Below, one piece after another: positions 42,697 to 56,542 of a DNA stretch of 64,000 nt. Each line of letters opens with the position of its first letter. Position 1 is the first letter of the stretch. Below the pieces are notes generated by a model, which was not told the DNA's origin, did not search any database, and saw nothing but the letters and a program-made list of their open reading frames with translations. The DNA comes from Noviherbaspirillum suwonense. GTDB taxonomy: Bacteria; Pseudomonadota; Gammaproteobacteria; Burkholderiales; Burkholderiaceae_D. The translations under genes and the position numbers were made by a program. The stretch lies in NCBI RefSeq assembly GCF_900182955.1, contig NZ_FXUL01000007.1, positions 1 to 64,000 on the forward strand. The letters run 5' to 3'.

Positions 42697-43689
42697 TTAG
42701 AAAGTATGTCGAACTCCGAGGTTAAATGCCTTGTCTCCGGTGCCCGTATCGGTTGCATTGCCTACCTTGAAGTCCGCTCCGTTATCGTTGCCGATCCGGG
42801 CGTAGGCAACATAGAGATCGGTCCGTTTAGACAGGCCGTAAAAGTAACCGATAGCCCACTGGTGAGCATCGCGATTCATTGCCGTCCTGTCGTCATGCCG
42901 GATGTAGGAACCCAGCAATCGGTTTGGGCCGAACGGCACGGACACGCCCAGGATGAAGTCCCTGCTATCAGCCGCTCCCAGGCCCTTGTTAACGGCATAT
43001 CCGATGCTGCCTTCGGCAAGGCTGAACTTGTAGCGCGCCGCTAGCAGGGTATTTTTCGTCCTGTCTGTAGCCGTCGCATTGTTGAGCTGGTGGTGGGCCA
43101 GCTTTATCGCGGCAGGTCCTTGTTCGTAGCCGATCGCCGCGCCAATGGTGCGGCTCTTCTGCGCGTCACCGGCAATTTCGCCAAGGCCATAGGCGAGGTC
43201 GGCGAAAAATCCGCCAAACTTTGGTGTTTGGTAGTTAATCATGTTGTTGACGCGCGTGTTGGTTGCCATGACGTTTCCAGCCCGGCCAGCGAGGCCAGCC
43301 GCGAAAGGATCCGCGATGTCCCGCAGTGCCAGGTAATACGGTGAATACTGCCGGCCCATCCTCACCGCGCCAAAATTGCCTGACAAGCCAACATACATCT
43401 GGCGACCGAACAGCAAGCCGCCTTGTCCCAAGGTGCCGTTATCAGAATTAAACCCGTTCTCCAGCAGGAAGTTGGCGGACAGGCCGCCACCGAGGTCTTC
43501 CTTGCCCCTGAACCCCAGGCGGGAGCCCGATGCGACGCCACCGCCAAGGCCAGTGACATTGCCGTCGGGGCCGCCGCTCTCGCGAACCAGCCCGGCGTCG
43601 ACAATACCGTAAATGGAAACGCTGGTCTGAGCATGGGTCATGCCTGACAGCGCCAGCAGCGCAGCGGCAGCAATTACTGATGTTTTCAT
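42697..43689 (-). CDS. Outer-membrane porin, Burkholderiales type
   Basis: A 330-residue trimeric porin with a signal peptide (MKTSVIAAAALLALSGMTHA). The mature part opens QTSVSIYGIVDAGLVRESGG and includes GSRLGFRGKEDLGGGLSANF and FGRQMYVGLSGNFGAVRMGR, the loop and barrel blocks of this family, and ends LGVRHTF. It admits small anionic solutes and may serve the dicarboxylate pathway upstream on the same strand. GAGAG precedes the ATG. The leader contains a tandem repeat and a palindrome. Confidence 0.93.
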   Translation of the reverse strand: MKTSVIAAAALLALSGMTHAQTSVSIYGIVDAGLVRESGGPDGNVTGLGGGVASGSRLGFRGKEDLGGGLSANFLLENGFNSDNGTLGQGGLLFGRQMYVGLSGNFGAVRMGRQYSPYYLALRDIADPFAAGLAGRAGNVMATNTRVNNMINYQTPKFGGFFADLAYGLGEIAGDAQKSRTIGAAIGYEQGPAAIKLAHHQLNNATATDRTKNTLLAARYKFSLAEGSIGYAVNKGLGAADSRDFILGVSVPFGPNRLLGSYIRHDDRTAMNRDAHQWAIGYFYGLSKRTDLYVAYARIGNDNGADFKVGNATDTGTGDKAFNLGVRHTF

Positions 43690-43888: not shown

Positions 43889-45241
43889 TTAGCGGTTTTC
43901 CCGCCTACGGAGCACCCGGTCGACCATCTCCCCGGACAAGCCAAGATAATTCGCGGGATCGCACAGCTTGCTCAATTCGTCGCGGTTCATATGCCTGGAA
44001 ATCTCGGGATTTTCCACCAGCAGGTCGAGTAGAGGCCGGTTCTCCTGGATCGCGACGCGGCAAATGTCGTACACCAGGTCGTGCGCATATTCCCGTCCGA
44101 GATGGGGGCCAAGACCCATCATGACCGCCTCGGAGACCACCAGGCCGTTCGTCATTTCCAGATTGGCGCGCATGCGTTTTTCATCGACTTCCAGTCCTTC
44201 CAGCACAAAGCGCGCCTGCGCCAGCGCGCCGGCTGCCAGACAGAATGCCTCGGGCAGAACAATCCATTCGATTTCCCATGGCCCAGTGGAGCGTTCGTGA
44301 TCGGCGACGTTGGCGTCGAGCAGCGCCGCGACATGCTGCCGGACCACGCTGGTGCATGCGTGGATGTAGCAGGAGGAGATCGGGTTGCGTTTCTGCGGCA
44401 TGGTGCTGCTGGATCCGCGACCATGCGCGTAAGGCTCATAGACCTCGCCAACCTCGGTCTGCATCATCAGTTTTACATCTGTCGACAGTTTGCCCAACGT
44501 GCCCGTGACCAGGCCGAGGAAACACCCCACTTCGGCTATGTTGTCGCGGATCGTGTGCCAGGCGATGTCGGGCTGTCCCAGGCCCAGCTCCTGCATCAGT
44601 CCGGCCTGGGTTTCTAGGCCGCCGACTTCAATCGACGCCAGGGTGCCGGACGCACCCGCGAATTCGCCTACCAGGATCCGCGGCCTGAGTTCGGCAAGGC
44701 GGGTGCGGTGCCGTTCGACCGCGCTCAGCAGCCCGGCCACCTTGTAGCCGAAGGTGATCGGAACCGCCTGTTGCAGATTGCTTCGCCCAATCATTGGCGT
44801 GTCGCGATAGCGCTTGGCCAGGCTGGCCATGAGGCTGGAAATCGCCGTCAGCTCAGTGTCGACGAGATCCAGTCCTTCGCGTATTTGCAGCACGGTCGCT
44901 GTATCGGTAATGTCCTGCGTGGTCGCGCCCCAGTGGCAGAACTCGCCAAGCTTGTCCCGGCACAGCGCATTGATTTGCGAAACCACCCCAAGAATCGGGT
45001 AGCCGATACGCTGGGTTTGCGCGGCCAGTTTTTCCATGTCGATTTTTTCAAGCACGCAGTTGCGCACGATTTCGTCTGCGGCTTCCGCGGGAATAATCCC
45101 GAGACGTCCCTGGACGCGGGCCAGCGCCGCTTCAATGGCAAGATACTTCGCAGTGCGGTTCTCGTCGGACCAGACTTGCCGCATTGCTGCGGTGCTAAAT
45201 ATGTTGCCGAATATGGAAGAGTCGATGATGGTTGCAGCCAT
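43889..45241 (-). CDS. Aspartase/PurB superfamily lyase
   Basis: A 450-residue lyase of the fumarase/aspartase superfamily. The signature flexible loop SSTMPQKRNP carries the catalytic serine near residue 280. QDITDTATVLQIREGL and MIGRSNLQQAVPITFGYKVA are the other two conserved blocks. It is closest in style to PcaB (3-carboxymuconate cycloisomerase) and PurB, but the genome context is not purine or protocatechuate metabolism. It lies 50 bases after the CitE-type gene and so may form or use an unsaturated dicarboxylate. Length is usual. Confidence 0.88.
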   Translation of the reverse strand: MAATIIDSSIFGNIFSTAAMRQVWSDENRTAKYLAIEAALARVQGRLGIIPAEAADEIVRNCVLEKIDMEKLAAQTQRIGYPILGVVSQINALCRDKLGEFCHWGATTQDITDTATVLQIREGLDLVDTELTAISSLMASLAKRYRDTPMIGRSNLQQAVPITFGYKVAGLLSAVERHRTRLAELRPRILVGEFAGASGTLASIEVGGLETQAGLMQELGLGQPDIAWHTIRDNIAEVGCFLGLVTGTLGKLSTDVKLMMQTEVGEVYEPYAHGRGSSSTMPQKRNPISSCYIHACTSVVRQHVAALLDANVADHERSTGPWEIEWIVLPEAFCLAAGALAQARFVLEGLEVDEKRMRANLEMTNGLVVSEAVMMGLGPHLGREYAHDLVYDICRVAIQENRPLLDLLVENPEISRHMNRDELSKLCDPANYLGLSGEMVDRVLRRRENR

Positions 45242-45291: not shown

Positions 45292-46116
45292 TCAGGCCGG
45301 GATGCGGCCTAGAATTGCCTCTGCCTTTAATAGGACCGGGCGATCCACCATCTTTCCGTCAACCTGTACCGCGCCCCGGCCGGCCCCGGCGGCAGCGACG
45401 ACGCGCCGCGCCCATTCGACCTCGTGGGCTTTTGGCGCAAGCGCCTGGCGGATCAGAGTCACCTGTTTCGGATGGATGCATAGCTTTGCGGTGAATCCGC
45501 AGGCGCGTGCGAAAGCAAGATCCGCCAGCAAGGCGTCATCGTCGGCGAGATCGGCCGTGACGCCTGCGATGGGGGCAGCCAGGCCGGCGGCGCGTGAAGC
45601 CAGCGCCATGCGGCAAGCCGGATACGCAAGGCCACGCTCGTCGCCCGACAAATCAAGATCCACTGCATAGTCCAGCGTGCCGAACGCCAGGCGCTGGACG
45701 CCGGCCGATACCGCAATTGCGTCGACATTGAGCAAGCCGCGGGCGGTCTCGATGATGGGAATGATTGCGCTCCCGGAAGCGAGCGCCGCTTTGACGCGCC
45801 CGACCTGGCTTGCCAGTTCCACCTTGGGCAGCATGACCCCGCCGATCCCGGCGGCGCTTGCCAGGGCAAGGTCGTCGTCGAACCATCGGGTCGTTTCGTC
45901 GTTGATGCGGACGATGAGTGCGGCAGCCATATCGCGATGCGCATCGCACCAGTTTCCAAGGGCGCGGCGCGCGCTTGCCTTTTCGTCGGGCGAAACGGCG
46001 TCTTCCAGGTCGACGATTACGGCGTCGGCGCCGGCCGCCAATGCCTTGGCATAGCGGTCGGGGCGGTTTGCCGGAACAAACAGGTAGGTGGCCGGCAGCT
46101 TGTCTTGTCTATTCAT
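45292..46116 (-). CDS. CitE/HpcH-family CoA-ester lyase, probable citramalyl-CoA lyase
   Basis: A 274-residue TIM-barrel lyase. The first strand and acidic motif YLFVPANRPDRY and VIVDLEDAV are followed by PIIETARGLLN (metal-binding Glu) and KLCIHPKQV, all typical of the citrate lyase beta/malyl-CoA lyase family. Beside a CaiB transferase and a mesaconyl-CoA hydratase-like protein, the best guess is cleavage of citramalyl-CoA to acetyl-CoA and pyruvate. The frame is open to 46341; the ATG at 46116 has a GAGG site and starts 8 bases after the CaiB stop. Confidence 0.88.
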   Translation of the reverse strand: MNRQDKLPATYLFVPANRPDRYAKALAAGADAVIVDLEDAVSPDEKASARRALGNWCDAHRDMAAALIVRINDETTRWFDDDLALASAAGIGGVMLPKVELASQVGRVKAALASGSAIIPIIETARGLLNVDAIAVSAGVQRLAFGTLDYAVDLDLSGDERGLAYPACRMALASRAAGLAAPIAGVTADLADDDALLADLAFARACGFTAKLCIHPKQVTLIRQALAPKAHEVEWARRVVAAAGAGRGAVQVDGKMVDRPVLLKAEAILGRIPA

Positions 46117-46124
46117 GGCGCACC

Positions 46125-47306
46125 TCATATCGCGTGGGCCGCCCGCATGTCGGCGATCTGCTTGTCTGAATACGCCAGGCTTTTCAGGATTGCCTCGGTG
46201 TGCTGGCCGAGCGCCGGCACGGCGTCCATGCGCGGCGGCTCGTCTTCCCAGGAGCCGGGCGGCAGCAGCGCCGGGATCTTGCCGGCCGGCGAATCGACCT
46301 GGCGCCAGCGCTCGCGCGCCTGCAGTTGCGGATGGGCCCACACCGCATGCATATCATTGACGTTGGCGTTGGCAATCTGGGCGGCATCGAGGCGGGCCAC
46401 CACTTCCGCCGACGTCAGCGTCGAGAAGGCCGCGACGATGAGCGCGCGAATCTCGTCCCTTGCAGCACTGCGTTTCGAATTGGTGAGAAAGCGCGGGTCG
46501 CCTGCCAGCTCCGGCGACAGCAGCACCTTCTGACAGAACAGGGTCCACTCTCTGTCATTCTGCAGCCCCAGCATGACGGTCTTGCCATCGCCAGCGGGGA
46601 AAGGACCGTAAGGATAGATCGTCGCATGGCTGGCGCCGGTGCGTGGCGGCGGCGCCGCGCCTTCATACGCGTAGTACAGCGGATAACTGTTCCATTCGAC
46701 CAGGCACTCCAGCATGGAAATATCCAGGTGCTGTCCGCGCCCCGTCCGCTCGCGCTGCAGCAGCGCGGCAAGGATGCTGCTGTATGCATACATGCCGGCG
46801 GAAATGTCGGCGATCGACGGGCCGGCCTTTGATGGCTGGTCGTCGGTGCCGGTGACTGAAAGGAATCCGGCTTCGCTCTGGATCAGAAGGTCATACGCTT
46901 TCTTGTCGCGATAAGGTCCGTTGCCGCCATAACCGGAAATGTCGCAGACGATGATGCCTGGCTTGGCTGCGGACAAGATCTCATAGGACAAGCCAAGTCG
47001 CGCCGCCGCGCCAGGCGCCAGGTTTTGCACGACGATATCGGCTTCCTCCATGATCAGACGCTGGAGGATTTTCTGCGCTTCGTCGTGCTTGACGTCCAGC
47101 GTCAGGCTTTCCTTGGAACGGTTGGTCCAGACAAAATGGGATGCCAGTCCGCTCACCCGTTCATCGTAGCCGCGCGCGAAATCGCCGACGCCCGGACGTT
47201 CAATTTTAATGATTCGTGCGCCCAGATCAGCCAGCTGGCGGGTGCAGAACGGCGCAGCGATTGCATGTTCCAGCGTAACGACGGTAATGCCTTGAAGAGG
47301 TTTCAT
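46125..47306 (-). CDS. CaiB/BaiF CoA-transferase, probable C5-dicarboxylate activation
   Basis: A 393-residue type III CoA-transferase. It starts MKPLQGITVVTLEHAIAAPF, then LADLGARIIKIERPG. The segment GPSIADISAGMYAYSSILAA holds the aspartate nucleophile, and GRGQHLDISMLECLVEW follows. By context it would move CoA from succinyl-CoA to mesaconate or a similar acid; that substrate is inferred. It is 9 bases after the MaoC-type gene and 8 bases before the CitE-type gene. Confidence 0.9.
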   Translation of the reverse strand: MKPLQGITVVTLEHAIAAPFCTRQLADLGARIIKIERPGVGDFARGYDERVSGLASHFVWTNRSKESLTLDVKHDEAQKILQRLIMEEADIVVQNLAPGAAARLGLSYEILSAAKPGIIVCDISGYGGNGPYRDKKAYDLLIQSEAGFLSVTGTDDQPSKAGPSIADISAGMYAYSSILAALLQRERTGRGQHLDISMLECLVEWNSYPLYYAYEGAAPPPRTGASHATIYPYGPFPAGDGKTVMLGLQNDREWTLFCQKVLLSPELAGDPRFLTNSKRSAARDEIRALIVAAFSTLTSAEVVARLDAAQIANANVNDMHAVWAHPQLQARERWRQVDSPAGKIPALLPPGSWEDEPPRMDAVPALGQHTEAILKSLAYSDKQIADMRAAHAI

Positions 47307-47315
47307 CTGGTGTCC

Positions 47316-48155
47316 TCACTTGATGGTGGCGCTTGCATCCATGGTCAACCAGCCTTCGTGATCCTTGGCCCACAGATGTATGGTCTTGCCGTCCGCTTCA
47401 CCGCAGACGAAAAAATGATGGATGTCAAATGTCGGGCGCACGGCCCGGAATGCGAAGCGCTCGACCTGGGCGTCGGGCAACTGCCGGCGCAGGAGATCGA
47501 GCAGCAGGGTGGCGATCATGGGGCCGTGAACCACCAGCCCCGGATAGCCTTCGACTTCGGTGACATAGCGACGGTCATAATGGATGCGGTGACCGTTAAA
47601 GGTCAGCGCCGAGTAACGGAACAGCAGCACGTCGTCGGGGACGATCTTCCGTTCCCAGGCAGACGAGGCCGGCGCTGCGGTGGGCGAGGGCGACACGTCA
47701 TCGGCTTGCGCGGCCTGGCGATAGACAATGTCGTGGAACTCGGTCAATGCGATGTCGGGCGCGCCATTACGGCGGATTTCATGTCTGACTTTGACGAACA
47801 CCAGCGGCCCGGTCCGCCCGGATTTTTCAGTCACGTCATCGATCGTGGATGTCCTTGTGACCTGGTCCCCGATCCGCAGGGGCTGGTGAAAGATGAACTG
47901 GCTGCCGGCCCACATGCGCCGCGGCAAAGGTACCGGCGGCAGGAAGGCGCCGCGCTTCGCATGCCCGTCGGCGCCGATCTCCGATTGCCGATAGAGCGGC
48001 AGAAAGTAAAGCCAGTGCCACAGCGCGGGCAGCGGCGTTCCTTGTGCCGGTCGGTCCGCCGTGTAGTCCAGGGTTGCCGAAAGGGCGGCATAGGGTGTCG
48101 CCGTGACCAGGTCCGAAACGCATTCGCTCTTCCCGATCCACTCGCTGAGATTCAT
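47316..48155 (-). CDS. MaoC-type double-hotdog hydratase, mesaconyl-CoA hydratase-like
   Basis: A 279-residue hydratase with two hotdog halves. The first (about 1-150) includes WAGSQFIFHQPLRIGDQVTR. The second has the active-site block FNGHRIHYDRRYVTEVEGYP and VVHGPMIATLLLDLL. This HTD2/FAS1-like form is the one used by mesaconyl-C4-CoA hydratase. It would turn mesaconyl-CoA into citramalyl-CoA. The frame is open to 48254, but the ATG at 48155 has GGAGA. It is the first gene of the operon and is divergent from the LysR gene. Confidence 0.88.
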   Translation of the reverse strand: MNLSEWIGKSECVSDLVTATPYAALSATLDYTADRPAQGTPLPALWHWLYFLPLYRQSEIGADGHAKRGAFLPPVPLPRRMWAGSQFIFHQPLRIGDQVTRTSTIDDVTEKSGRTGPLVFVKVRHEIRRNGAPDIALTEFHDIVYRQAAQADDVSPSPTAAPASSAWERKIVPDDVLLFRYSALTFNGHRIHYDRRYVTEVEGYPGLVVHGPMIATLLLDLLRRQLPDAQVERFAFRAVRPTFDIHHFFVCGEADGKTIHLWAKDHEGWLTMDASATIK

Positions 48156-48276
48156 GGTAGGGGTCTCCTCATGTACGAAACAAAAATGGGGAATCGTCGA
48201 GCAAGGCTTGTCTTGATTCACGTCGCCTTTGCCGATGTGGCGACGCCTTGCCATGAAAAGATTTTCCGTCTAAGGT

Positions 48277-48317: not shown

Positions 48318-49223
48318 ATGAGCATGAATTTCGACTTAGCCGATTTGCGCGCTTTTGTCGCGGTTGCCGAGATGAACAGTTTTCGGGCAGCGGCGACGGC
48401 ACTGCATCTGTCGCAGCCTGCAATCAGCCGACGTATTGAAAAGCTCGAGGCAGCGCTCGGGATCCGTTTATTCGAGCGCACCACGCGGCGCATCGCGCTG
48501 ACTGCTGTCGGCCGGGATTTTTCGCATAAGGCGCGCACCCTGCTCGACGACCTGGAAAATTCGCTGCTCAGCATGCGCGAGGTGGCAGCATCGCAAACGG
48601 GAGAGGTGGTGATTGCCTGCGTGCCCTCGGCAGCCTATTACTTCCTGCCGAAAGTGCTGACCGAATACCACAAGCAGTATCCGCGCATCCGGGTGCGGAT
48701 TATTGACGACAGCGCCAACGGCGTGTTGGCAAGCGTGACACGCGGCGAGGCCGAGTTCGGCATCAACATTACGGGCAACCAGGAGCCGGACATCGATTTT
48801 CAGGGCATCCTTACCGAGTCTTTTGTCGTGGCATGCCGGCGCGACCATCCGCTGGCATCAAGGTCCACGGTAAGCTGGGCAGAAATCGGCCAGTACGACT
48901 ACATGACGGTCGACCGCAGCAGCGGCAACCGGCTGTTGCTGGACCTGGCGCTGGCCCACACCAGCGTCAATCTTGCATGGTGCTATGAAGCCAAGCATGT
49001 TTCCACGTTGATTGGCCTGGTCGAAGCGGGGCTGGGCATTGCCGTGGTGCCACGGTTGTCCATGCCTGCTGACGGGCATCCGACGCTGATCAGCGTACCG
49101 CTGACGGACCCAAGCGTGAAGCGGATGGTCGGCCTCGTTCGCAGGCGCGGTCGCGAGCTGACGCCCTCGGCGCTGCACTTGTACCAGCTAATCGAGAGTA
49201 CCTGGCCGCGCCGCGTGAAGTAG
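48318..49223 (+). CDS. LysR-family regulator of the proposed C5-dicarboxylate regulon
   Basis: A 301-residue regulator. Helix-turn-helix region LADLRAFVAVAEMNSF followed by AATALHLSQPAISRRIEKLE; effector domain from about 90 to 295. It is divergent from the hydratase-CaiB-CitE operon, and the 39-bp element it would bind overlaps its own upstream edge. The same element lies upstream of dctA. The gene is therefore the best candidate controller of both operons. It converges with the prpF-type fusion gene, 36 bases apart. Confidence 0.93.
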   Translation: MSMNFDLADLRAFVAVAEMNSFRAAATALHLSQPAISRRIEKLEAALGIRLFERTTRRIALTAVGRDFSHKARTLLDDLENSLLSMREVAASQTGEVVIACVPSAAYYFLPKVLTEYHKQYPRIRVRIIDDSANGVLASVTRGEAEFGINITGNQEPDIDFQGILTESFVVACRRDHPLASRSTVSWAEIGQYDYMTVDRSSGNRLLLDLALAHTSVNLAWCYEAKHVSTLIGLVEAGLGIAVVPRLSMPADGHPTLISVPLTDPSVKRMVGLVRRRGRELTPSALHLYQLIESTWPRRVK

Positions 49224-49259: not shown

Positions 49260-51326
49260 TTAGTCTGCGGAAGAGTCGACCAGCTTGCCTTCCCGTGCGA
49301 CGTTCTTCCACTTCATCAGTTCGGACTGCACAAGTTCACGCAGCTCGGCTGGCGTACTGGCCTGGACTTCTGCGCCGTCCTGCTCCATCCGCTGGATGAT
49401 CTGCGGATCCGCCAGAACCGCGTGGAGCGCCTTGCTCAAAGTGTCGATCAGGGCCTTCGGCGTTCGGGCAGGCGCAAACAAGGCATACCACTGCGTGACG
49501 TCCACGCCGTCAATCCCGGCTTCCGCGAGCGTAGGCACGTCGGGCAAGGCGGCGCTGCGCCTTGGCCCAGCTACGGCAAGCGCGTGAAGTTTGCCGCTCT
49601 TGATCTGGGGCGCGGCCGTAAAGAGACTGGGAAACATGAAGTGCGCCCGGCCGGTGAGCATTTCAGTCAAGGCCGGCGAGGCGCCATTGTAAGGAACGTG
49701 AATCATGCGCGTACCGGAACTGAGCTTGAACAACTCGCCCGCGAAATGCGGCGCAGTGCCTGTTCCGGCGGAAACGTAACTGTACTTTTCCGGGGCGGCG
49801 CGCAGCTGGCGCACCACGTCTCTGACATCGGATGCAGGGACATTCGAACTCGCCACCATCACCGTCGGAGAATAGCCAACCAATCCTATCGGTTCGAAGT
49901 CGGCGACAGGATCGTAGCCGACCTTTTGCAACGCAGGATTCATCGCATGGGTGGCGATGTATCCCAGCATCAGGGTATGACCGTCCGGGGTGGCGCGCGC
50001 CACGTATTCGCTAGCGATGGATCCTTGCGCCCCGGCCCGGTTATCGATGATGACCGCCTGCCCCAGCAGCGCGCCGAGCTTGAGCCCGATGGCGCGCGCC
50101 ATCGCGTCATTGCCGCCGCCGGCGAAAGTCGGAACGACTATCGTGATCGGCTTGCCAGGAAATGGCATCGCTATCGCGGACGTGGCGTCGGTCGTGGTCG
50201 CCGCGTGCGCGGCGGGCCGGATCATGGCGGCGACTTCGTCGGGTCGTGACAGCACGTAATCCGGTATGTGCAGATCTCCCTGCAGTATCTTGCGTGCCGT
50301 ACGCACAAGCGAAGCACGCCTGATCTGGGTCGCGTCGCCGTCGCCTTCGGTCTCCACCTCGACGTCGATGCGGCCTGCGGGGTGGAGCACCACAAGGTTG
50401 CGTCGGGCGACGCCGGCCTCGCTTCGGACGCGGCTTGCAACAGTGCCAGGCAGCGCCAAAGCGCTTGCCACGCCAATCGCTCCTGTCACCGCATGCGACG
50501 CATGGCACCGGCGCGGCGTGAAATAACGTGAGCGGATGCTGTCATCGCTATCGCCTTCGCTGATCAGCACCGGCTTGGGAATGACGCTGGCGGAGACGTC
50601 TCCCAAACCCATCATTTCACCTGCCGCCAGCCGCATGCCTTCCAGTCGCAACAGCAAATCGGCATCGGCATCGAGTTCGGCAGGACTCTCGCTGCCAGTC
50701 ACGCCCAAATCGCGGGCACGGACGATCATCAGGGGCATCGCGGCATCGATGCAGGTCACCTCGATGCCGTCGATCCTGTCGATCCGTCGGCCGGTCGGAA
50801 AAACCTTGCCGGTGACCGCGCCCCATGCGTCCAGGAAATTCAGGTAGACGGGCGCCGCCGTTCCCGCCACCCCGTCTATCCGGGTGCCGCCGTCGTAGGT
50901 GAGGCGGCCTCCGGGCGTCTGCACCGTCACCTCGATCCGGGAACCGGTATTCACATTGAATACGCGCGCCGTCGTGGTGCCGTTGCTTGCCTTGATCAGT
51001 CCCTGCTCCAGCGCGAAGGGCACTACGCCGGCGAGCATGTTGCCGCAATTGGGCCGGGTATCGACGGAGCGCTGGCCGACGCCGACTTGCGCAAACAGAT
51101 AGTCGAGATCGCAGTCGGTCCGGCTCGACCGCGATACGATCGCGACCTTACTGTTAAGCGTGCTGCCGCCACCCACGCCATCGAGCTGGAGCGGATCGGA
51201 GGCGCCGATTGCGCCAATCAGTATCTGGTCGCGTGCATCCGTGTTTTCCGGCAGCCATTCGCGCAGGAAGAATGGCCCACGCGATGTTCCGGCGCGCATC
51301 AATACGCAAGGAAGCGTTTTACTCAT
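49260..51326 (-). CDS. PrpF-type isomerase fused to a Bug/TctC binding domain
   Basis: A 688-residue fusion. Residues 1-358 are a PrpF-family isomerase: VLMRAGTSRGPFF, LDGVGGGSTLNSKVAIV, the catalytic-type cysteine in PNCGNMLAGVVPFALEQGL, and PRRCHASHAVTGAIGVASA. PrpF proteins shift double bonds in unsaturated acids such as 2-methylaconitate. Residues 387-688 are a Bug-type binding domain: FPGKPITIVVPTFAGGGNDA, then VIIDNRAGAQGSIASEYVA. The 28-residue linker (359-386) is not a signal peptide, so the Bug half should stay in the cytoplasm. There is no frameshift in the joint. It lies 12 bases after dctA. Confidence 0.92.
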   Translation of the reverse strand: MSKTLPCVLMRAGTSRGPFFLREWLPENTDARDQILIGAIGASDPLQLDGVGGGSTLNSKVAIVSRSSRTDCDLDYLFAQVGVGQRSVDTRPNCGNMLAGVVPFALEQGLIKASNGTTTARVFNVNTGSRIEVTVQTPGGRLTYDGGTRIDGVAGTAAPVYLNFLDAWGAVTGKVFPTGRRIDRIDGIEVTCIDAAMPLMIVRARDLGVTGSESPAELDADADLLLRLEGMRLAAGEMMGLGDVSASVIPKPVLISEGDSDDSIRSRYFTPRRCHASHAVTGAIGVASALALPGTVASRVRSEAGVARRNLVVLHPAGRIDVEVETEGDGDATQIRRASLVRTARKILQGDLHIPDYVLSRPDEVAAMIRPAAHAATTTDATSAIAMPFPGKPITIVVPTFAGGGNDAMARAIGLKLGALLGQAVIIDNRAGAQGSIASEYVARATPDGHTLMLGYIATHAMNPALQKVGYDPVADFEPIGLVGYSPTVMVASSNVPASDVRDVVRQLRAAPEKYSYVSAGTGTAPHFAGELFKLSSGTRMIHVPYNGASPALTEMLTGRAHFMFPSLFTAAPQIKSGKLHALAVAGPRRSAALPDVPTLAEAGIDGVDVTQWYALFAPARTPKALIDTLSKALHAVLADPQIIQRMEQDGAEVQASTPAELRELVQSELMKWKNVAREGKLVDSSAD

Positions 51327-51338
51327 GTTCTTTTCCTG

Positions 51339-52655
51339 TCAGGCAGCGATTGCAGTGGAATGGGGCTGCGCCACTTCCTCCAGCTCGTCTTCCATAAAAC
51401 CGCGGTCCAGCTCACGGGAGAGGACCGTGCGGTCGCATGCGCCTTCCCACAGTGACACCACGATCGAGGCGACGCCATTGCTGACCAGGCTGGTCAGGGC
51501 GCGCGCTTCGGACATGAAACGGTCGATGCCGACGATCAGCGCCACGCCGGCAACCGGGATGTCCGGCATGATTGCCAGGGTCGCGACCAGGGCGACAAAT
51601 CCGCTTCCGGTGACGCCTGCCGCGCCCTTGGACGTCAGCAGCATCACGGCGAGCATGGCCAGGATCTGGCCGACGGACAGATGGATATCGCAAGCCTGTG
51701 CAATGAACACGGTGGCCAGAGTCAGATAGATGGCGCTGCCGTCGAGATTGAATGAATAGCCCATGGGCAGGACCAGGCCGGAGACGCCTTTTTGGCAACC
51801 CAGTCGTTCAAGCTTCAACAGCATGCGCGGCAGCACGGGCTCGGTGGAAGAGGTGCCCAGCACCACGACGAGTTCTTCCTTGAAATAACGCAGCGTCTTC
51901 AGCAGGCTGAACCCATGCAGTCTGGCGAGCGTGCCGAGGACGACAAACACGAAGAACAGGCAGGCCACATAGAAAGTGGCAATCAGCAGGCCGAGCGAGC
52001 TGACGGATTTGACGCCGTATTTGCCGATGGTAAACGCCATGGCGCCGAACGCGCCGAGCGGGGCCAGTTTCATCAGGAATCCGAAGACCGTGAAGAGCAC
52101 ATGCGAGAACGCGTCGATTGCATCGAGCACCGGACGTGCGCTTCGGCCCGTGTGCGCGATGCCGAACCCGATCAAAATGGCAAGCAACAGCACAGGAAGC
52201 ACTTCCCCTTCCGCGAATGCGCCAAAGAACGACGCCGGGATGATGTGCATGACGAACGGGACAAAACCGTGTGGGGCGTCCGGCTTCACATATTTGGCGG
52301 CCACGGAAGGATCCAGGGCGGACGGGGAGATATGCATGCCGACGCCAGGCTGCATCAGGTAGACCGCCGCCAGTCCCGTGGCAAGCGCAATGAACGTCAG
52401 CAGGTAAAACAGGCCCATTGCCTTGACCAGCGTCTTGCCGACCTCCTTCATGTTGCTCATTTTTGCAATGCCAAGAGCGATGGTGCAGAACACGATCGGC
52501 GCAATCATCATTTTTACAAACTTGATGAACGCATCGCCGAGCGGTTTGAGAGAGCTGCCGAAGTCAGGCCAGTAATGCCCGACCACGACCCCAGCGGTCA
52601 CCGCGATTAACACCTGGAAATACAGCGACTTATAGAATGCAGCCTTGGTTTTCAC
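51339..52655 (-). CDS. dctA: C4-dicarboxylate:cation symporter DctA family
   Basis: A 438-residue DAACS-family symporter. It has the conserved hairpin/TM7 blocks SSTEPVLPRMLLKLERLG and VLPMGYSFNLDGSAIYLTLA, with FIAQACDIHLS after. It opens FYKSLYFQVLIAVTAGVVVGH like DctA. The standard substrates are succinate, fumarate and malate. Next to a PrpF-type gene and under the shared 39-bp element it may carry a related C5 dicarboxylate. It is the first gene of a two-gene operon. Confidence 0.93.
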   Translation of the reverse strand: MKTKAAFYKSLYFQVLIAVTAGVVVGHYWPDFGSSLKPLGDAFIKFVKMMIAPIVFCTIALGIAKMSNMKEVGKTLVKAMGLFYLLTFIALATGLAAVYLMQPGVGMHISPSALDPSVAAKYVKPDAPHGFVPFVMHIIPASFFGAFAEGEVLPVLLLAILIGFGIAHTGRSARPVLDAIDAFSHVLFTVFGFLMKLAPLGAFGAMAFTIGKYGVKSVSSLGLLIATFYVACLFFVFVVLGTLARLHGFSLLKTLRYFKEELVVVLGTSSTEPVLPRMLLKLERLGCQKGVSGLVLPMGYSFNLDGSAIYLTLATVFIAQACDIHLSVGQILAMLAVMLLTSKGAAGVTGSGFVALVATLAIMPDIPVAGVALIVGIDRFMSEARALTSLVSNGVASIVVSLWEGACDRTVLSRELDRGFMEDELEEVAQPHSTAIAA

Positions 52656-53232: not shown

Positions 53233-54174
53233 TCATCTGGCTATTAAACCGGCGTCGTTCTCAAACGATGCCGCTAGAAAATCCACGAAGGCTTTAACCC
53301 GTGTCGTTGAACGATGCTGCTGTGGATATACCGCATATATATCGGCATCTGGAGTGTCGAAGTTTGGCAGAACATGGATCAATGTTCCACGCTGAATATA
53401 TTCAACCACATCCCATTCAGCCCTCAGCAATATGCCCTTGCCGGCGAGTGCCCAGTTCACAGCGACGCCACCGTCGTTGGTCGTAAGGTTGCCTCTGATA
53501 CGTATGTTTTGCTCGTCCACCTTGGCAGAACCCTTGCCCTTTGGGCGGCTGCGTGTGAACCGCCACACACCATATTCATCCCCCTGGCGGATCCCGATGC
53601 AGTTGTGTGCCATCAGATCCTGAGGTGACTTTGGTGCGCCGTGACGCTGCAAATAGGCGGGGGACGCGCACAGGATACGGCGATTGCTTGCGAGGAATCT
53701 GGCGACTGCACGGGTATCGGGCGGCGGACCGAAGCGAACGCATACATCATAAATGTCTTCGGACAGTGGCGGAGGGGTCACCGAGAGTTGCAATTGCACG
53801 TCAACATCGGCGTATTGCTGTACGAAGCTTGAAACAAGCGGCGCTACATAGCTCCGACCGAAGCCCAGGGTGGCGTTGACCCGCAACAGCCCTTTCGGCG
53901 TCTGCGTCGTTCCCCAAAGGAAGTTTTCCAGGTCATCGATCTCGCTCAGAATCTTGCGGGCGGCCTCCAGATACGTTTCGCCTTCGGGTGTCAGGCTCAT
54001 CCGGCGGGTCGTCCGGTTCATTAATCTCAACCGCAGGCGCTCCTCCATTAATGCCAGGTGCTTGCTGACAGCCGGCGTACTAATGCCCAGCTCCCGCGCG
54101 GCAGCCGCCAGACTCCCACAACTGACAAGCGTCGAAAAAAAGTCGAAATCACTTGGATTGATTGCCTTGGACAT
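53233..54174 (-). CDS. LysR-family regulator
   Basis: A 313-residue regulator. Helix-turn-helix DFDFFSTLVSCGSLAAAARE, then LGISTPAVSKHLALMEERL; effector domain from about 90. It is divergent from the Bug-tartrate dehydrogenase genes, and an inverted repeat at 54185-54205 lies just before its start, fitting autoregulation and control of the neighbours. Confidence 0.93.
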   Translation of the reverse strand: MSKAINPSDFDFFSTLVSCGSLAAAARELGISTPAVSKHLALMEERLRLRLMNRTTRRMSLTPEGETYLEAARKILSEIDDLENFLWGTTQTPKGLLRVNATLGFGRSYVAPLVSSFVQQYADVDVQLQLSVTPPPLSEDIYDVCVRFGPPPDTRAVARFLASNRRILCASPAYLQRHGAPKSPQDLMAHNCIGIRQGDEYGVWRFTRSRPKGKGSAKVDEQNIRIRGNLTTNDGGVAVNWALAGKGILLRAEWDVVEYIQRGTLIHVLPNFDTPDADIYAVYPQQHRSTTRVKAFVDFLAASFENDAGLIAR

Positions 54175-54184
54175 AGTGAACTTG

Positions 54185-54205
54185 AAGTTAATGACAGTTT
54201 AACTT
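54185..54205. promoter_or_regulatory. Inverted repeat, candidate LysR operator
   Basis: Perfect arms AAGTTAA and TTAACTT with seven bases between. It is 10 bases upstream of the LysR start and 72 upstream of the Bug start, a usual place for a LysR-type site. It agrees with the T-N11-A rule. Confidence 0.55.
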
Positions 54206-54277
54206 TGTAGGCAAATTTTGAGCCAAAGTCAACCTAGAATGCGTCTCACCAAATCCAAAAAAATTCAGGAGACAACG

Positions 54278-55267
54278 ATGAATCACTCTTTTAACGCAGG
54301 ACGCCTGGTGAAGCTGCTCGCCCTCGCCCCCCTGTTCCTGGTTGGCATAGTCAACCTCGCTCACGCGGAAGCCTGGCCGACGAAACCGGTGACCATCGTC
54401 GTTCCGTTTCCTGCGGGAGGCACGACCGATGTCCTGGCACGCGCAATTGCGGTCAAGCTTGGCCCTGTGCTCGGCCAGTCGGTGATCGTCGATAACAGGC
54501 CGGGTGCGGGCGCGACCTTGGGGGCTGCGCTGGTCGCAAAAGCGGCGCCGGATGGTCACACGATGCTCATGGGCGCGGTGCATCACACCATTGCGACCAG
54601 TGTTTATAAAAAAATGAGCTATGACTTCCAAAAGGATTTTGCGCCAATCACGACAGTTGCTCTGGTGCCCAACGTGCTGGTTGTCAGCACATCCAAGCCG
54701 TACAAGAACGTGAGCGATTTGGTTGCTGACGCGAAGGCCGCGCCTGGCAAGTTGAGCTACGGATCCAACGGCAATGGGACCGCGCAACATTTGATCGGCA
54801 CGCAGTTCCAGCAGATCAGCGGCACGACAATTTTGCATGTCCCATACAAAGGCAGCGCGCCACTGACAACCGACATGCTTGGTGGACAGATTGATATGTC
54901 CTTCGACACCATCACGCCGGTTCTTCCGTTTATCAAGCAGGGCAAGCTTCGGCCTCTGGCCATAACGACTGCGAAGCGCTCGTCTGTGTTGCCCGATGTG
55001 CCGACGATGCAGGAAGCCGGTATTTCCGGACTGGATATCGGCACCTGGTTTGGACTGCTGGTTCCCGCGGCAACACCCAAAGAAATTACGCAAAGGCTCA
55101 ACAAGGAGATCGTGCAGATCATTAAGTCTGGCGAGTTTCAGAAGCAGATGGCGGAAATTGGCGCCGAGCCGGTTGGAAACACACCGGCAGAAATGGCCAG
55201 GCAGATTCAGGAAGAAACCGAAAAATTTGCCGGCCTGGTGAGGGCAGGCAACGTCAAGATCGAATAG
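54278..55267 (+). CDS. Bug/TctC-family periplasmic solute-binding protein
   Basis: A 329-residue secreted binder with a signal peptide (residues 1-30, LVKLLALAPLFLVGIVNLAH, cut after AEA). The mature start WPTKPVTIVVPFPAGGTTD is the carboxylate-binding loop of the family. The ATG at 54278 follows AGGAGA. It is divergent from the LysR gene and 198 bases upstream of a tartrate/D-malate dehydrogenase-type gene, so a hydroxydicarboxylate is a fair guess for its ligand. Confidence 0.93.
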   Translation: MNHSFNAGRLVKLLALAPLFLVGIVNLAHAEAWPTKPVTIVVPFPAGGTTDVLARAIAVKLGPVLGQSVIVDNRPGAGATLGAALVAKAAPDGHTMLMGAVHHTIATSVYKKMSYDFQKDFAPITTVALVPNVLVVSTSKPYKNVSDLVADAKAAPGKLSYGSNGNGTAQHLIGTQFQQISGTTILHVPYKGSAPLTTDMLGGQIDMSFDTITPVLPFIKQGKLRPLAITTAKRSSVLPDVPTMQEAGISGLDIGTWFGLLVPAATPKEITQRLNKEIVQIIKSGEFQKQMAEIGAEPVGNTPAEMARQIQEETEKFAGLVRAGNVKIE

Positions 55268-55465
55268 CGGCAAAACGCTTTCATGCCTTGGAATTCGAGG
55301 GGACGGAAATTAATGCCATGATTAAAGGCACCTTCCGTCAGGAAATGACAGATTTTAAATTTCCGGCTAATTTGCATATTTTGCAGAATTCAAGGGCGCG
55401 GAACATCAGCGGAAGCACTGTGTTGCGAACCCGTTTTATCCACATTCACCCATCCAGGAGACATC

Positions 55466-56542
55466 ATGCGTGTACACAAAATTGCTGCCATCGGGGCAGA
55501 TGGAATCGGTCCGGAAGTCATTGCGGCTGGCTTGGAAGTCCTGGAGGCATTGTCTACCAAGGACGGCAATTTCAAATTGGAAATCGAGCATTTTCCATGG
55601 AGTTCTGAGTATTACCTGAAAAACGGCTATTACATTCCCGAAGGGGGGCTCGAAACCCTGAAGAAGTTCGACGCGATTTTCTTTGGCGCGGTCGGCAGCC
55701 AGCAAGTCCCGGATCATGTTTCCCTCTGGGGTCTGCGGCTGCCGATCGCCCAAGGTTTTGACCAATATGCCAACGTGCGGCCCGCACGCGTCCTGCCAGG
55801 CGTAAAAAGTCCATTGGCAGGGGGTGAGGACATTGACTGGGTCATCGTGCGCGAGAATTCCGAAGGTGAATACTCGGGTAATGGTGGGCGCGCGCATCGC
55901 GGCTTGCCGATTGAGGTGGGCACTGAAGTCGCCATCTTTACCCGTGCAGGCGTGGAGCGTATTCACCGCTTCGCGTTCAGGCTTGCCCAGAAACGTCCCG
56001 CCAAACACCTGACGCTGGTGACCAAGTCCAATGCGCAGCGTTTTGGCATGGTGATGTGGGATGAAATCTTCGCGGAAGTAGCCAAGGACTATCCGGACGT
56101 CACGACCGACCGCGAACTGGTGGATGCAATGACGACCCGCATGGTGCTCAAGCCGAAGACACTGGACGTCGTGGTAGCCACCAATCTGCACGCAGACATT
56201 CTGTCTGACCTGGCTGCGGCATTGTCCGGTAGCCTGGGCATCGCGCCGACCGCTAATCTGAACCCGGAACGCCAGTTTCCTTCGATGTTCGAGCCTATCC
56301 ATGGATCGGCCTTCGACATCACGGGCAAGGGCGTGGCAAATCCAATCGCAACCTTCTGGACGGCAGTCATGATGCTGGAACACCTGGGTGAATTCGAACC
56401 GGCGAAGAAACTGATGAAGGCGATCGAAGCGGTTACCGCAAACAAGGTTCACACGCCGGACCTGGGTGGCAAGGCGAGCACCGCCGATGTCACCAAGGCA
56501 GTTTGTGAGTACATCGCCGCTTCGGAAACCGTTACGGCCTGA
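55466..56542 (+). CDS. ttuC: Tartrate/D-malate dehydrogenase-type decarboxylating oxidoreductase
   Basis: A 358-residue enzyme of the isocitrate/isopropylmalate dehydrogenase superfamily. It begins [20 protein letters not shown]. The arginine-rich substrate loop [18 protein letters not shown] and [12 protein letters not shown] are typical of the tartrate dehydrogenase group. [20 protein letters not shown] carries the metal-binding aspartates, and [19 protein letters not shown] is near the end. It would oxidatively decarboxylate D-malate or tartrate with NAD. An AGGAGA ribosome-binding site precedes it. Confidence 0.9.

Follow-up and report, generated by a model that had tools for sequence, protein, structure and literature searches.

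Bug/TctC proteins are numerous and are regarded as exported receptors, and a gene of Noviherbaspirillum suwonense that joins such a domain to a PrpF-type isomerase raises the question of what a receptor domain does once it is tethered to an enzyme. The gene lies at 49260 to 51326 on the minus strand of the window, by which we mean the whole stretch of 64,000 nucleotides analysed here (positions 1 to 64,000 of contig NZ_FXUL01000007.1). We confirm that the PrpF-Bug fusion is real and not an artefact. The explanation that we favour, with a probability of about one half, is that the product is an aconitate-type isomerase of the cytoplasm that carries a tethered, 'unlatched' carboxylate-binding domain, and that in the window organism it would belong to a predicted aconitate-to-itaconate degradation route; this reading is built on sequence comparison and gene context.

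One frame with two domains, and its recurrence

The frame runs without interruption from an ATG at 51326 to a stop at 49260. Its Pfam PrpF domain is full length (residues 4-355, profile positions 3-371 of 371, 364.7 bits against a cut-off of 27), Pfam TctC is matched over residues 410-679 (222 bits, cut-off 27), and solved Bug proteins align in phmmer from about residue 387, which leaves a linker of about 28 residues.

49260..51326, minus strand: PrpF::Bug fusion gene, 688 amino acids, a single open frame with Pfam PrpF and TctC
50253..51326, minus strand: PrpF-type isomerase half, residues 1-358 (Pfam, NCBIfam and PDB matches)
50169..50252, minus strand: linker, residues 359-386, without a hydrophobic core
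49263..50168, minus strand: Bug/TctC half, residues 387-688, without a visible signal peptide (Pfam and PDB matches)

The N-terminus of the fusion, MSKTLPCVLMRAGTSRG, agrees with the N-termini of unfused PrpF relatives. Signal peptides were called throughout by eye and hydropathy rather than with a dedicated predictor, and on this basis no export signal is visible in the window fusion, linker included: the most hydrophobic 12-residue stretch of the linker reaches a Kyte-Doolittle mean of 1.0, whereas three Bug signal peptides reach 1.7, 2.3 and 2.7. A preliminary description of the locus had proposed a single frame, a 28-residue linker and the lack of an export signal, and all three are borne out. 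Promoter and Rfam scans added nothing. A search of the organism's own genome, a draft assembly of 78 contigs, returned 53 matches, namely the fusion itself, two PrpF and 50 Bug stretches; as none of the 50 exceeds 43% identity to the fusion's Bug half, no close free copy of the fused Bug was seen there. Three of these 50 stretches in the 6.45 Mb genome contain one internal stop codon and one contains two.

An uninterrupted PrpF::Bug frame was found at 14 loci including the window, all in Burkholderiales. The preliminary description knew of no such arrangement; with 14 loci carrying it, the fusion is not unique. A contig search gave 48 loci, five of which span nearly the whole query: one is fused (L009) and four hold separate genes (L010-L013). 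A draw across the family found the fusion in 4 of 392 genomes (the window genome, G372, G273 and G342), a draw across the order (399 genomes) added G653, G525 and G402, and in a draw across the phylum (398 genomes, E <= 1e-120) the window genome was the sole fused one; at most two candidates were scored per genome in the three large draws, so that these fusion counts are lower bounds. Narrower draws found the fusion in 4 of 62 genomes of the genus of G342 (G393 being new), 4 of 74 in the family of G653 (G1205 and G1203 being new), 1 of 91 in a family draw around G628 (G1219) and 1 of 4 in the family of G402 (G402 alone), and the window's own genus held no other fusion (1 of 4 genomes, the window genome). 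Plasmids carry it as well. A single place covering 80% of the query was found in 17 plasmid records, and among seven records examined, six of them from those 17, two are fused: a plasmid of Cupriavidus oxalaticus X32 (a complete record) and one of Variovorax sp. SRS16, where the fusion is annotated as one RefSeq protein (WP_162571173.1, 674 amino acids). At the plasmid loci of Rhizobium, Microvirga and Sinorhizobium (L087, L088 and L090-L092) the PrpF frame stops before the Bug, and no fusion outside Burkholderiales was found in the phylum draw or among the plasmid loci examined. The linker sequence is different in each fused locus, and no signal peptide is visible in it in 13 of the 14, the exception being L009. 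No description of a PrpF-TctC fusion was found among the titles and abstract beginnings searched in the literature, which does not in itself show absence from print.

Selection and loop changes in the Bug half

The Bug half is nearest in the PDB to 2dvz, which is BugE (PMC5812351), terephthalate-binding proteins and BugD (2f5x). The structure of TphC is entry 7ndr. Both halves of the fusion are under purifying selection, the ratio of non-synonymous to synonymous substitution rates (dN/dS, simple counting method) being 0.09-0.15 for PrpF and 0.18-0.32 for Bug in the six pairs among L057, L115, L058 and L059.

We compared the Bug halves of 10 unexported fusions with eight signal-bearing members of the same clade (seven separate genes and L009, with signal peptides seen in all eight; L010 and L011 are near-identical), using 51 other Bugs as background and dropping L095, a second copy of L059. 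Three of the 293 Bug columns, 401, 547 and 549, were invariant in 8 of 8 signal-bearing proteins and changed in 10 of 10 fusions. They fall in the two closing loops.

50124..50126, minus strand: F401, first closing loop; A in the compared signal-bearing relatives, S31 of TphC by motif
49680..49688, minus strand: N547-G548-A549, second closing loop; K-G-S in the compared signal-bearing relatives, K177-G178-T179 of TphC by motif

The later fusions L133, L134 and L151 have S, S and S at position 401, A, P and S at 547 and A, A and A at 549, and all 10 later signal-bearing clade members have A401, K547 and S549 (three separate out-of-clade Bugs, in L162, L163 and L134, and duplicate or truncated L161 rows were excluded from this later set). 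Overall, the three positions tell the unexported fusions (13 of 13) and the signal-bearing clade members (18 of 18) apart. The closing loops hold 14 of the 102 columns invariant in signal-bearing proteins, and the probability that all three positions fall there by chance is 0.002, a figure that is partly post hoc because the difference in the second loop had already been seen beforehand; owing to common descent, moreover, the number of independent changes is below 13, particularly at 549. Closure of TphC is reported to involve a hydrogen bond between S31 and K177, and the backbones of S31 and T179 to contact the second carboxylate of the ligand via water (PMC8556258). The three positions that correspond to these residues are changed in all 13 unexported fusions. 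At the residue aligned to window N547, the terephthalate-binding chain 8hkb_A has D versus K in 8hka_A, and several fusions also have D.

T400, N406, Y456, H460, S567 and Q612 are peculiar to the clade. All 18 proteins of the first set, whether fused or not, have them; in the later set one unfused protein, L156, has E in place of Q612. Of the Bug receptor motif, given as P-F-X-A-G-G-X-X-D (PMC5812351), the window protein keeps P399, A402, G403, G404 and D407; T400 replaces the aromatic, as it does in all 18 clade members, signal-bearing ones included. Because the clade residues are invariant while 401, 547 and 549 differ, the pocket looks to have been kept and the clamp changed, where the pocket-lining positions are assigned by motif match to TphC. 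With these residues kept, the Bug half probably still recognises the ligand of its secreted relatives, plausibly the isomerase's own substrate, and the loss of residues from the two lobe-clamping loops would suit a binding domain at cytoplasmic concentrations. Tethered to the enzyme and of low affinity, it would then serve for binding or sensing, so as to buffer or deliver the substrate or to respond to it. A substrate holder or a cytoplasmic ligand sensor, as first proposed for this locus, are still the leading, if unproven, roles. The more specific proposal, that fusion made a periplasmic receptor cytoplasmic and turned it into an 'unlatched' sensor or substrate buffer for an aconitate isomerase that, in several members, would head a route to itaconate through a trans-aconitate decarboxylase (Tad), we put forward only tentatively.

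Three points about the Bug half weigh against the favoured explanation. The Bug halves evolve faster than the PrpF halves; position 547 is not a strict family trait, being K in 29, N in 13, R in 8 and D in 1 of the 51 out-of-clade Bugs; and loss of the clamp residues could mean loss of ligand binding. The Bug half might then be a structural part, contributing for example to the oligomerisation, stability or solubility of the isomerase. This would also accommodate the many different residues that replace those at 401 and 547 in the fusions and the smaller number of invariant columns in the 10 fused proteins (71 of 293, versus 102 in the eight signal-bearing ones). A mere spacer, however, would not need the six clade-peculiar residues that are invariant in the 10 fused proteins, and we regard a purely structural Bug half as unlikely, if still a serious contender.

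The isomerase half and its gene setting

The PrpF half is nearest in the PDB to the putative isomerase YbhH (6otv), then to the oxalomesaconate isomerases 6p3h, 6p3j and 6p3k. Its K60 (NSKV) and C94 (NCGN), invariant across the 10 fused proteins in the alignment, match K73 and C107, reported as the catalytic residues of PrpF from Shewanella oneidensis (PMC5690661), a match made by motif and by eye rather than by structure. The same enzyme is reported to convert trans-aconitate to cis-aconitate (PMC5690661). Adi1 of Ustilago maydis, an aconitate isomerase of the PrpF family, is described as supplying trans-aconitate to Tad1 (PMC4720413), and TarA, an aconitate isomerase of the PrpF superfamily, as required by Bacillus velezensis to grow on trans-aconitate (PMC11495376). 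Judged from its family and the neighbouring genes, the PrpF half is most likely an allylic isomerase of cis-/trans-aconitate or a close tricarboxylate; we infer aconitate as the substrate, and the route via itaconate, from the gene setting together with Adi1/Tad1, S. oneidensis PrpF and TarA. The genes in question, some of which act on coenzyme A (CoA) esters by prediction, are as follows.

51339..52655, minus strand: DctA-type dicarboxylate transporter (Pfam SDF, 341.7 bits; NCBIfam NF002461, the DctA subfamily, above cut-off)
48318..49223, plus strand: LysR-family regulator (Pfam)
47316..48254, minus strand: itaconyl-CoA hydratase-like protein (PDB 8khg), the real start probably internal, near 48155
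46125..47306, minus strand: family III CoA-transferase, probable itaconate CoA-transferase (Pfam CoA_transf_3)
45292..46341, minus strand: CitE-like lyase, probable citramalyl-CoA lyase (PDB matches), the real start probably internal, near 46119
43889..45241, minus strand: Tad homologue (PDB 9h4e)
42697..43689, minus strand: porin (Pfam Porin_4), downstream of the decarboxylase gene

The five genes on one strand between 42697 and 48254 (porin, Tad homologue, lyase, CoA-transferase and hydratase-like) probably form an aconitate-to-itaconate degradation operon. The best PDB match of the Tad homologue is 9h4e, trans-aconitate decarboxylase 1 (E 5e-162, 543 bits); others are fumarate lyase 3c8t (469 bits) and muconate cycloisomerase 1re5 (366 bits), and its best NCBIfam models, muconate cycloisomerase and others, all fall below cut-off. 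The hydratase-like protein has no NCBIfam match and two PDB matches in all: 8khg, at E 7e-70, is named as an itaconyl-CoA hydratase, and 8huc is a protein with a MaoC-N domain. The CitE-like lyase matches the acyl-CoA lyase beta chains 9nzb (E 4e-58) and 8khl (E 1e-57), and the CoA-transferase is best matched by a formyl-CoA transferase and a succinate-hydroxymethylglutarate (HMG) CoA-transferase. The predicted route would start with uptake through the porin and DctA, followed by isomerisation of aconitate and decarboxylation to itaconate by the Tad homologue; itaconate would then pass through itaconyl-CoA and citramalyl-CoA to acetyl-CoA and pyruvate. Since degradation-type genes lie beside it, the route is probably catabolic. 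A LysR homologue is found within the examined stretch of 11 of the 14 fused loci, the window included. Elsewhere in the window, a LysR gene (minus strand), a Bug gene (plus strand) and a tartrate dehydrogenase gene (plus strand, above the NCBI cut-off) at 53233-56542 may be a cluster for the use of tartrate that has a receptor of its own.

Genes for a Tad homologue and a CoA-transferase lie near 8 of the 14 fusions (the window, L093, L094, L095, L115, L086, L089 and L009). The lyase gene was not seen in the examined stretch of L086; the L089 stretch begins inside the CoA-transferase gene, with the hydratase out of reach, and the L009 contig breaks off within the decarboxylase gene. In L094 a porin gene stands between decarboxylase and fusion. 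Across the family, a close Tad homologue occurs in 6 of 392 genomes, four of which have the fusion; of the remaining two, G359 carries the cluster with an adjacent PrpF that is unfused, and in G150 a LysR-PrpF-Bug set lies at a distance of about 500 kb.

Several findings count against the proposed substrate and route. The CoA-transferase falls below every specific NCBIfam cut-off, and the best NCBIfam model of the CitE-like lyase, RipC_Ccl, scores 148.5 bits against a cut-off of 375. No Tad homologue (E <= 1e-120) was found in the genomes of six of the 14 fusions (G1203 is 62% complete), so that the substrate may differ between members. Only at three loci (the window, L089 and L094) was a DctA gene found near the fusion; the examined stretches of the other 11 fused loci showed none. 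The PrpF half passes the NCBIfam equivalog for 4-oxalomesaconate tautomerase (NF033377, OMA_tautomer; 494.1 bits, cut-off 440) and falls below that for the 2-methylaconitate isomerase prpF (TIGR02334; 186.1 bits, cut-off 440.55). Lastly, in Variovorax sp. SRS16 a tannase/feruloyl esterase gene (L089, 9234-10967) lies beside the fusion. A strict link between the fusion and the Tad cluster was rejected, the cluster accompanying 8 of 14 fusions.

One may postulate from the tautomerase model, the oxalomesaconate isomerases among the PDB matches and the tannase gene that the enzyme serves gallate-type catabolism as a 4-oxalomesaconate tautomerase and has its aconitate and itaconate neighbours by coincidence. 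Amidohydro_2 genes near two Tad-less fusions (L117, 6038-6967; L167, 4504-5592) belong to a family that also holds 4-oxalomesaconate hydratases and would fit this scenario; the L167 protein, however, is nearest to an aminocarboxymuconate semialdehyde decarboxylase (E 1e-43) and is weakly like an oxalomesaconate hydratase (E 9e-7), and neither amidohydrolase passes any NCBI model, which weakens the argument without removing it. Against the scenario, the best PDB match of the PrpF half is the putative isomerase YbhH. Moreover, Adi1 isomerises aconitate although its best characterised relative, as listed, is an oxalomesaconate tautomerase (PMC4720413), and the NCBIfam model may for this reason not separate tautomerases from aconitate isomerases. 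We consider the gallate-type scenario distinctly unlikely.

MmgE/PrpD-family genes lie near three Tad-less fusions (L116, 6623-8107; L117, 4609-5988; L118, 4351-5742), and their products are mutually about 29-34% identical. Although they hinted at a cis-aconitate decarboxylase replacing Tad, we did not use them, given this low identity and because the L116 product matches IDS epimerase (E 4e-33) better than cis-aconitate decarboxylase (E 1e-26).

The setting also suggests that the Bug half could be a docking arm that keeps the isomerase near a transporter or the decarboxylase, serving channelling rather than sensing. In the window the DctA gene ends 12 nucleotides upstream of the fusion start on the same strand, and in L093 a separate Bug, TctB and TctA come after the fusion. 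Since trans-aconitate is reported to inhibit aconitase and fumarase (PMC4720413), channelling it would pay. The three loci compared, however, reveal no fixed partner (TctB and TctA in L093, a GGDEF gene after a separate Bug in L094, efflux genes after the fusion in L086), and DctA, as noted, was found near the fusion at 3 of the 14 loci; a docking arm therefore seems more doubtful still.

Descent of the fusion and its relation to known systems

In a tree of 29 PrpF halves, from which the truncated L161 row was left out, the 14 fused rows form one group (ultrafast bootstrap 89, Shimodaira-Hasegawa-like approximate likelihood ratio test (SH-aLRT) 87). L010-L013 are sister to it (join 100/99) and further unfused rows lie outside, and the fused group is nested among unfused PrpF proteins with an adjacent Bug gene. 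In L010-L013 the two genes stand 9-13 nucleotides apart and the Bug has its own signal peptide; a LysR gene lies beside the unfused pair in these loci and in L119, L121 and L169. The preliminary description had held that homologues with separate genes and a signal-bearing Bug would speak against the fusion. Such homologues do exist, in L010-L013 and others, but they lie outside the fused group, and because they surround it in the PrpF tree with none inside, they look like the older state. The Bug halves give a less tidy tree: one group (SH-aLRT 98) unites the 11 fused halves known at that stage with the Bugs of L010, L011 and L013 and the separate ones of L086 and L089, and without constraint the fused rows do not form a single clade, as the L009 Bug joins unfused ones (93). 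Constraining the 11 fused halves together, or 10 without L009, was not rejected (approximately unbiased test, p-AU 0.64 and 0.82, respectively). A single origin of the fusion is favoured but unproved.

L009 appears to be an intermediate form. Its fused frame still contains a complete signal peptide together with an ATG and a Shine-Dalgarno sequence (AGAAGGAGA). In the unfused L013, the upstream gene ends with a stop codon that overlaps the Shine-Dalgarno sequence of the downstream gene. Together these two loci suggest that stop loss came first and signal loss later; the branch that sets L009 outside the 13 other fusions is weak (55/49). Two neighbouring genes would thus have fused, with the Bug receptor afterwards losing its signal peptide, and the gene would now yield one protein, presumably cytoplasmic. 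At several loci the fused Bug is an extra to a secreted one, as a separate Bug adjoins the fusion in L086, L089 and L166 (signal-bearing, of the same clade and directly upstream) and in L093 and L094.

The signals retained in L009 could mean that two proteins are still made and that the Bug is secreted from an internal start. The other 13 loci have no linker start codon with a visible signal peptide after it, and internal starts are not conserved; we reject this very improbable explanation, with L009 as a possible exception. An assembly or sequencing artefact with a lost stop codon, conceivable for a draft genome, has a negligible probability and is rejected for the architecture, because 13 further loci carry the one-frame fusion with different linkers, two of them in plasmid records, one of which is stated to be complete.

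The lineage offers a natural test of a transport receptor turning into an intracellular domain, one in which the export signal was lost, an enzyme was joined and the same three loop positions differ from the exported relatives in all members examined. Its setting also predicts a bacterial aconitate-to-itaconate degradation built on a Tad homologue. Itaconate degradation is described as a three-enzyme route of Ict, Ich and Ccl in Pseudomonas and Cupriavidus necator (PMC12290011). The same source also places a second itaconyl-CoA hydratase homologue of C. necator next to genes for a CoA-transferase and a member of the adenylosuccinate lyase family; a citramalyl-CoA lyase is lacking in the vicinity, and the cluster is ascribed to a different, unnamed pathway (PMC12290011). 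A match by description, not by sequence, suggests that the adenylosuccinate lyase family gene is the same decarboxylase, and the predicted route could explain its position.

The window resembles the Ict/Ich/Ccl cluster in its adjacent CoA-transferase, hydratase-like and CitE-like genes; it differs in adding the Tad homologue and PrpF::Bug, and its Ict and Ccl assignments fall below the specific NCBI cut-offs. With the Adi1 and Tad1 itaconate pathway of U. maydis, as reported (PMC4720413), it shares a PrpF-family isomerase with a Tad homologue, whereas the window case is bacterial, has degradation-type genes adjacent and has its isomerase fused to Bug. Like S. oneidensis PrpF, Adi1, TarA, 6p3h and YbhH, the window protein has a full Pfam PrpF domain, the catalytic Lys and Cys motifs and an expected allylic isomerisation; unlike them it adds a C-terminal Bug domain, and it scores below the prpF equivalog. 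Its Bug half shares with the receptors BugD (2f5x), Bug27 (2qpq), BugE (2dvz) and TphC a full TctC domain and the first-loop motif save for its aromatic, but is without a visible signal peptide, is fused to an enzyme and has lost the Lys and Ser of the second loop. There is also a likeness to the unfused PrpF-Bug neighbours (L010-L013, L119, L121 and L152-L160), in which both families stand side by side and PrpF is 54-66% identical; there the genes are separate, and the Bugs compared have a signal peptide together with A401, K547 and S549.

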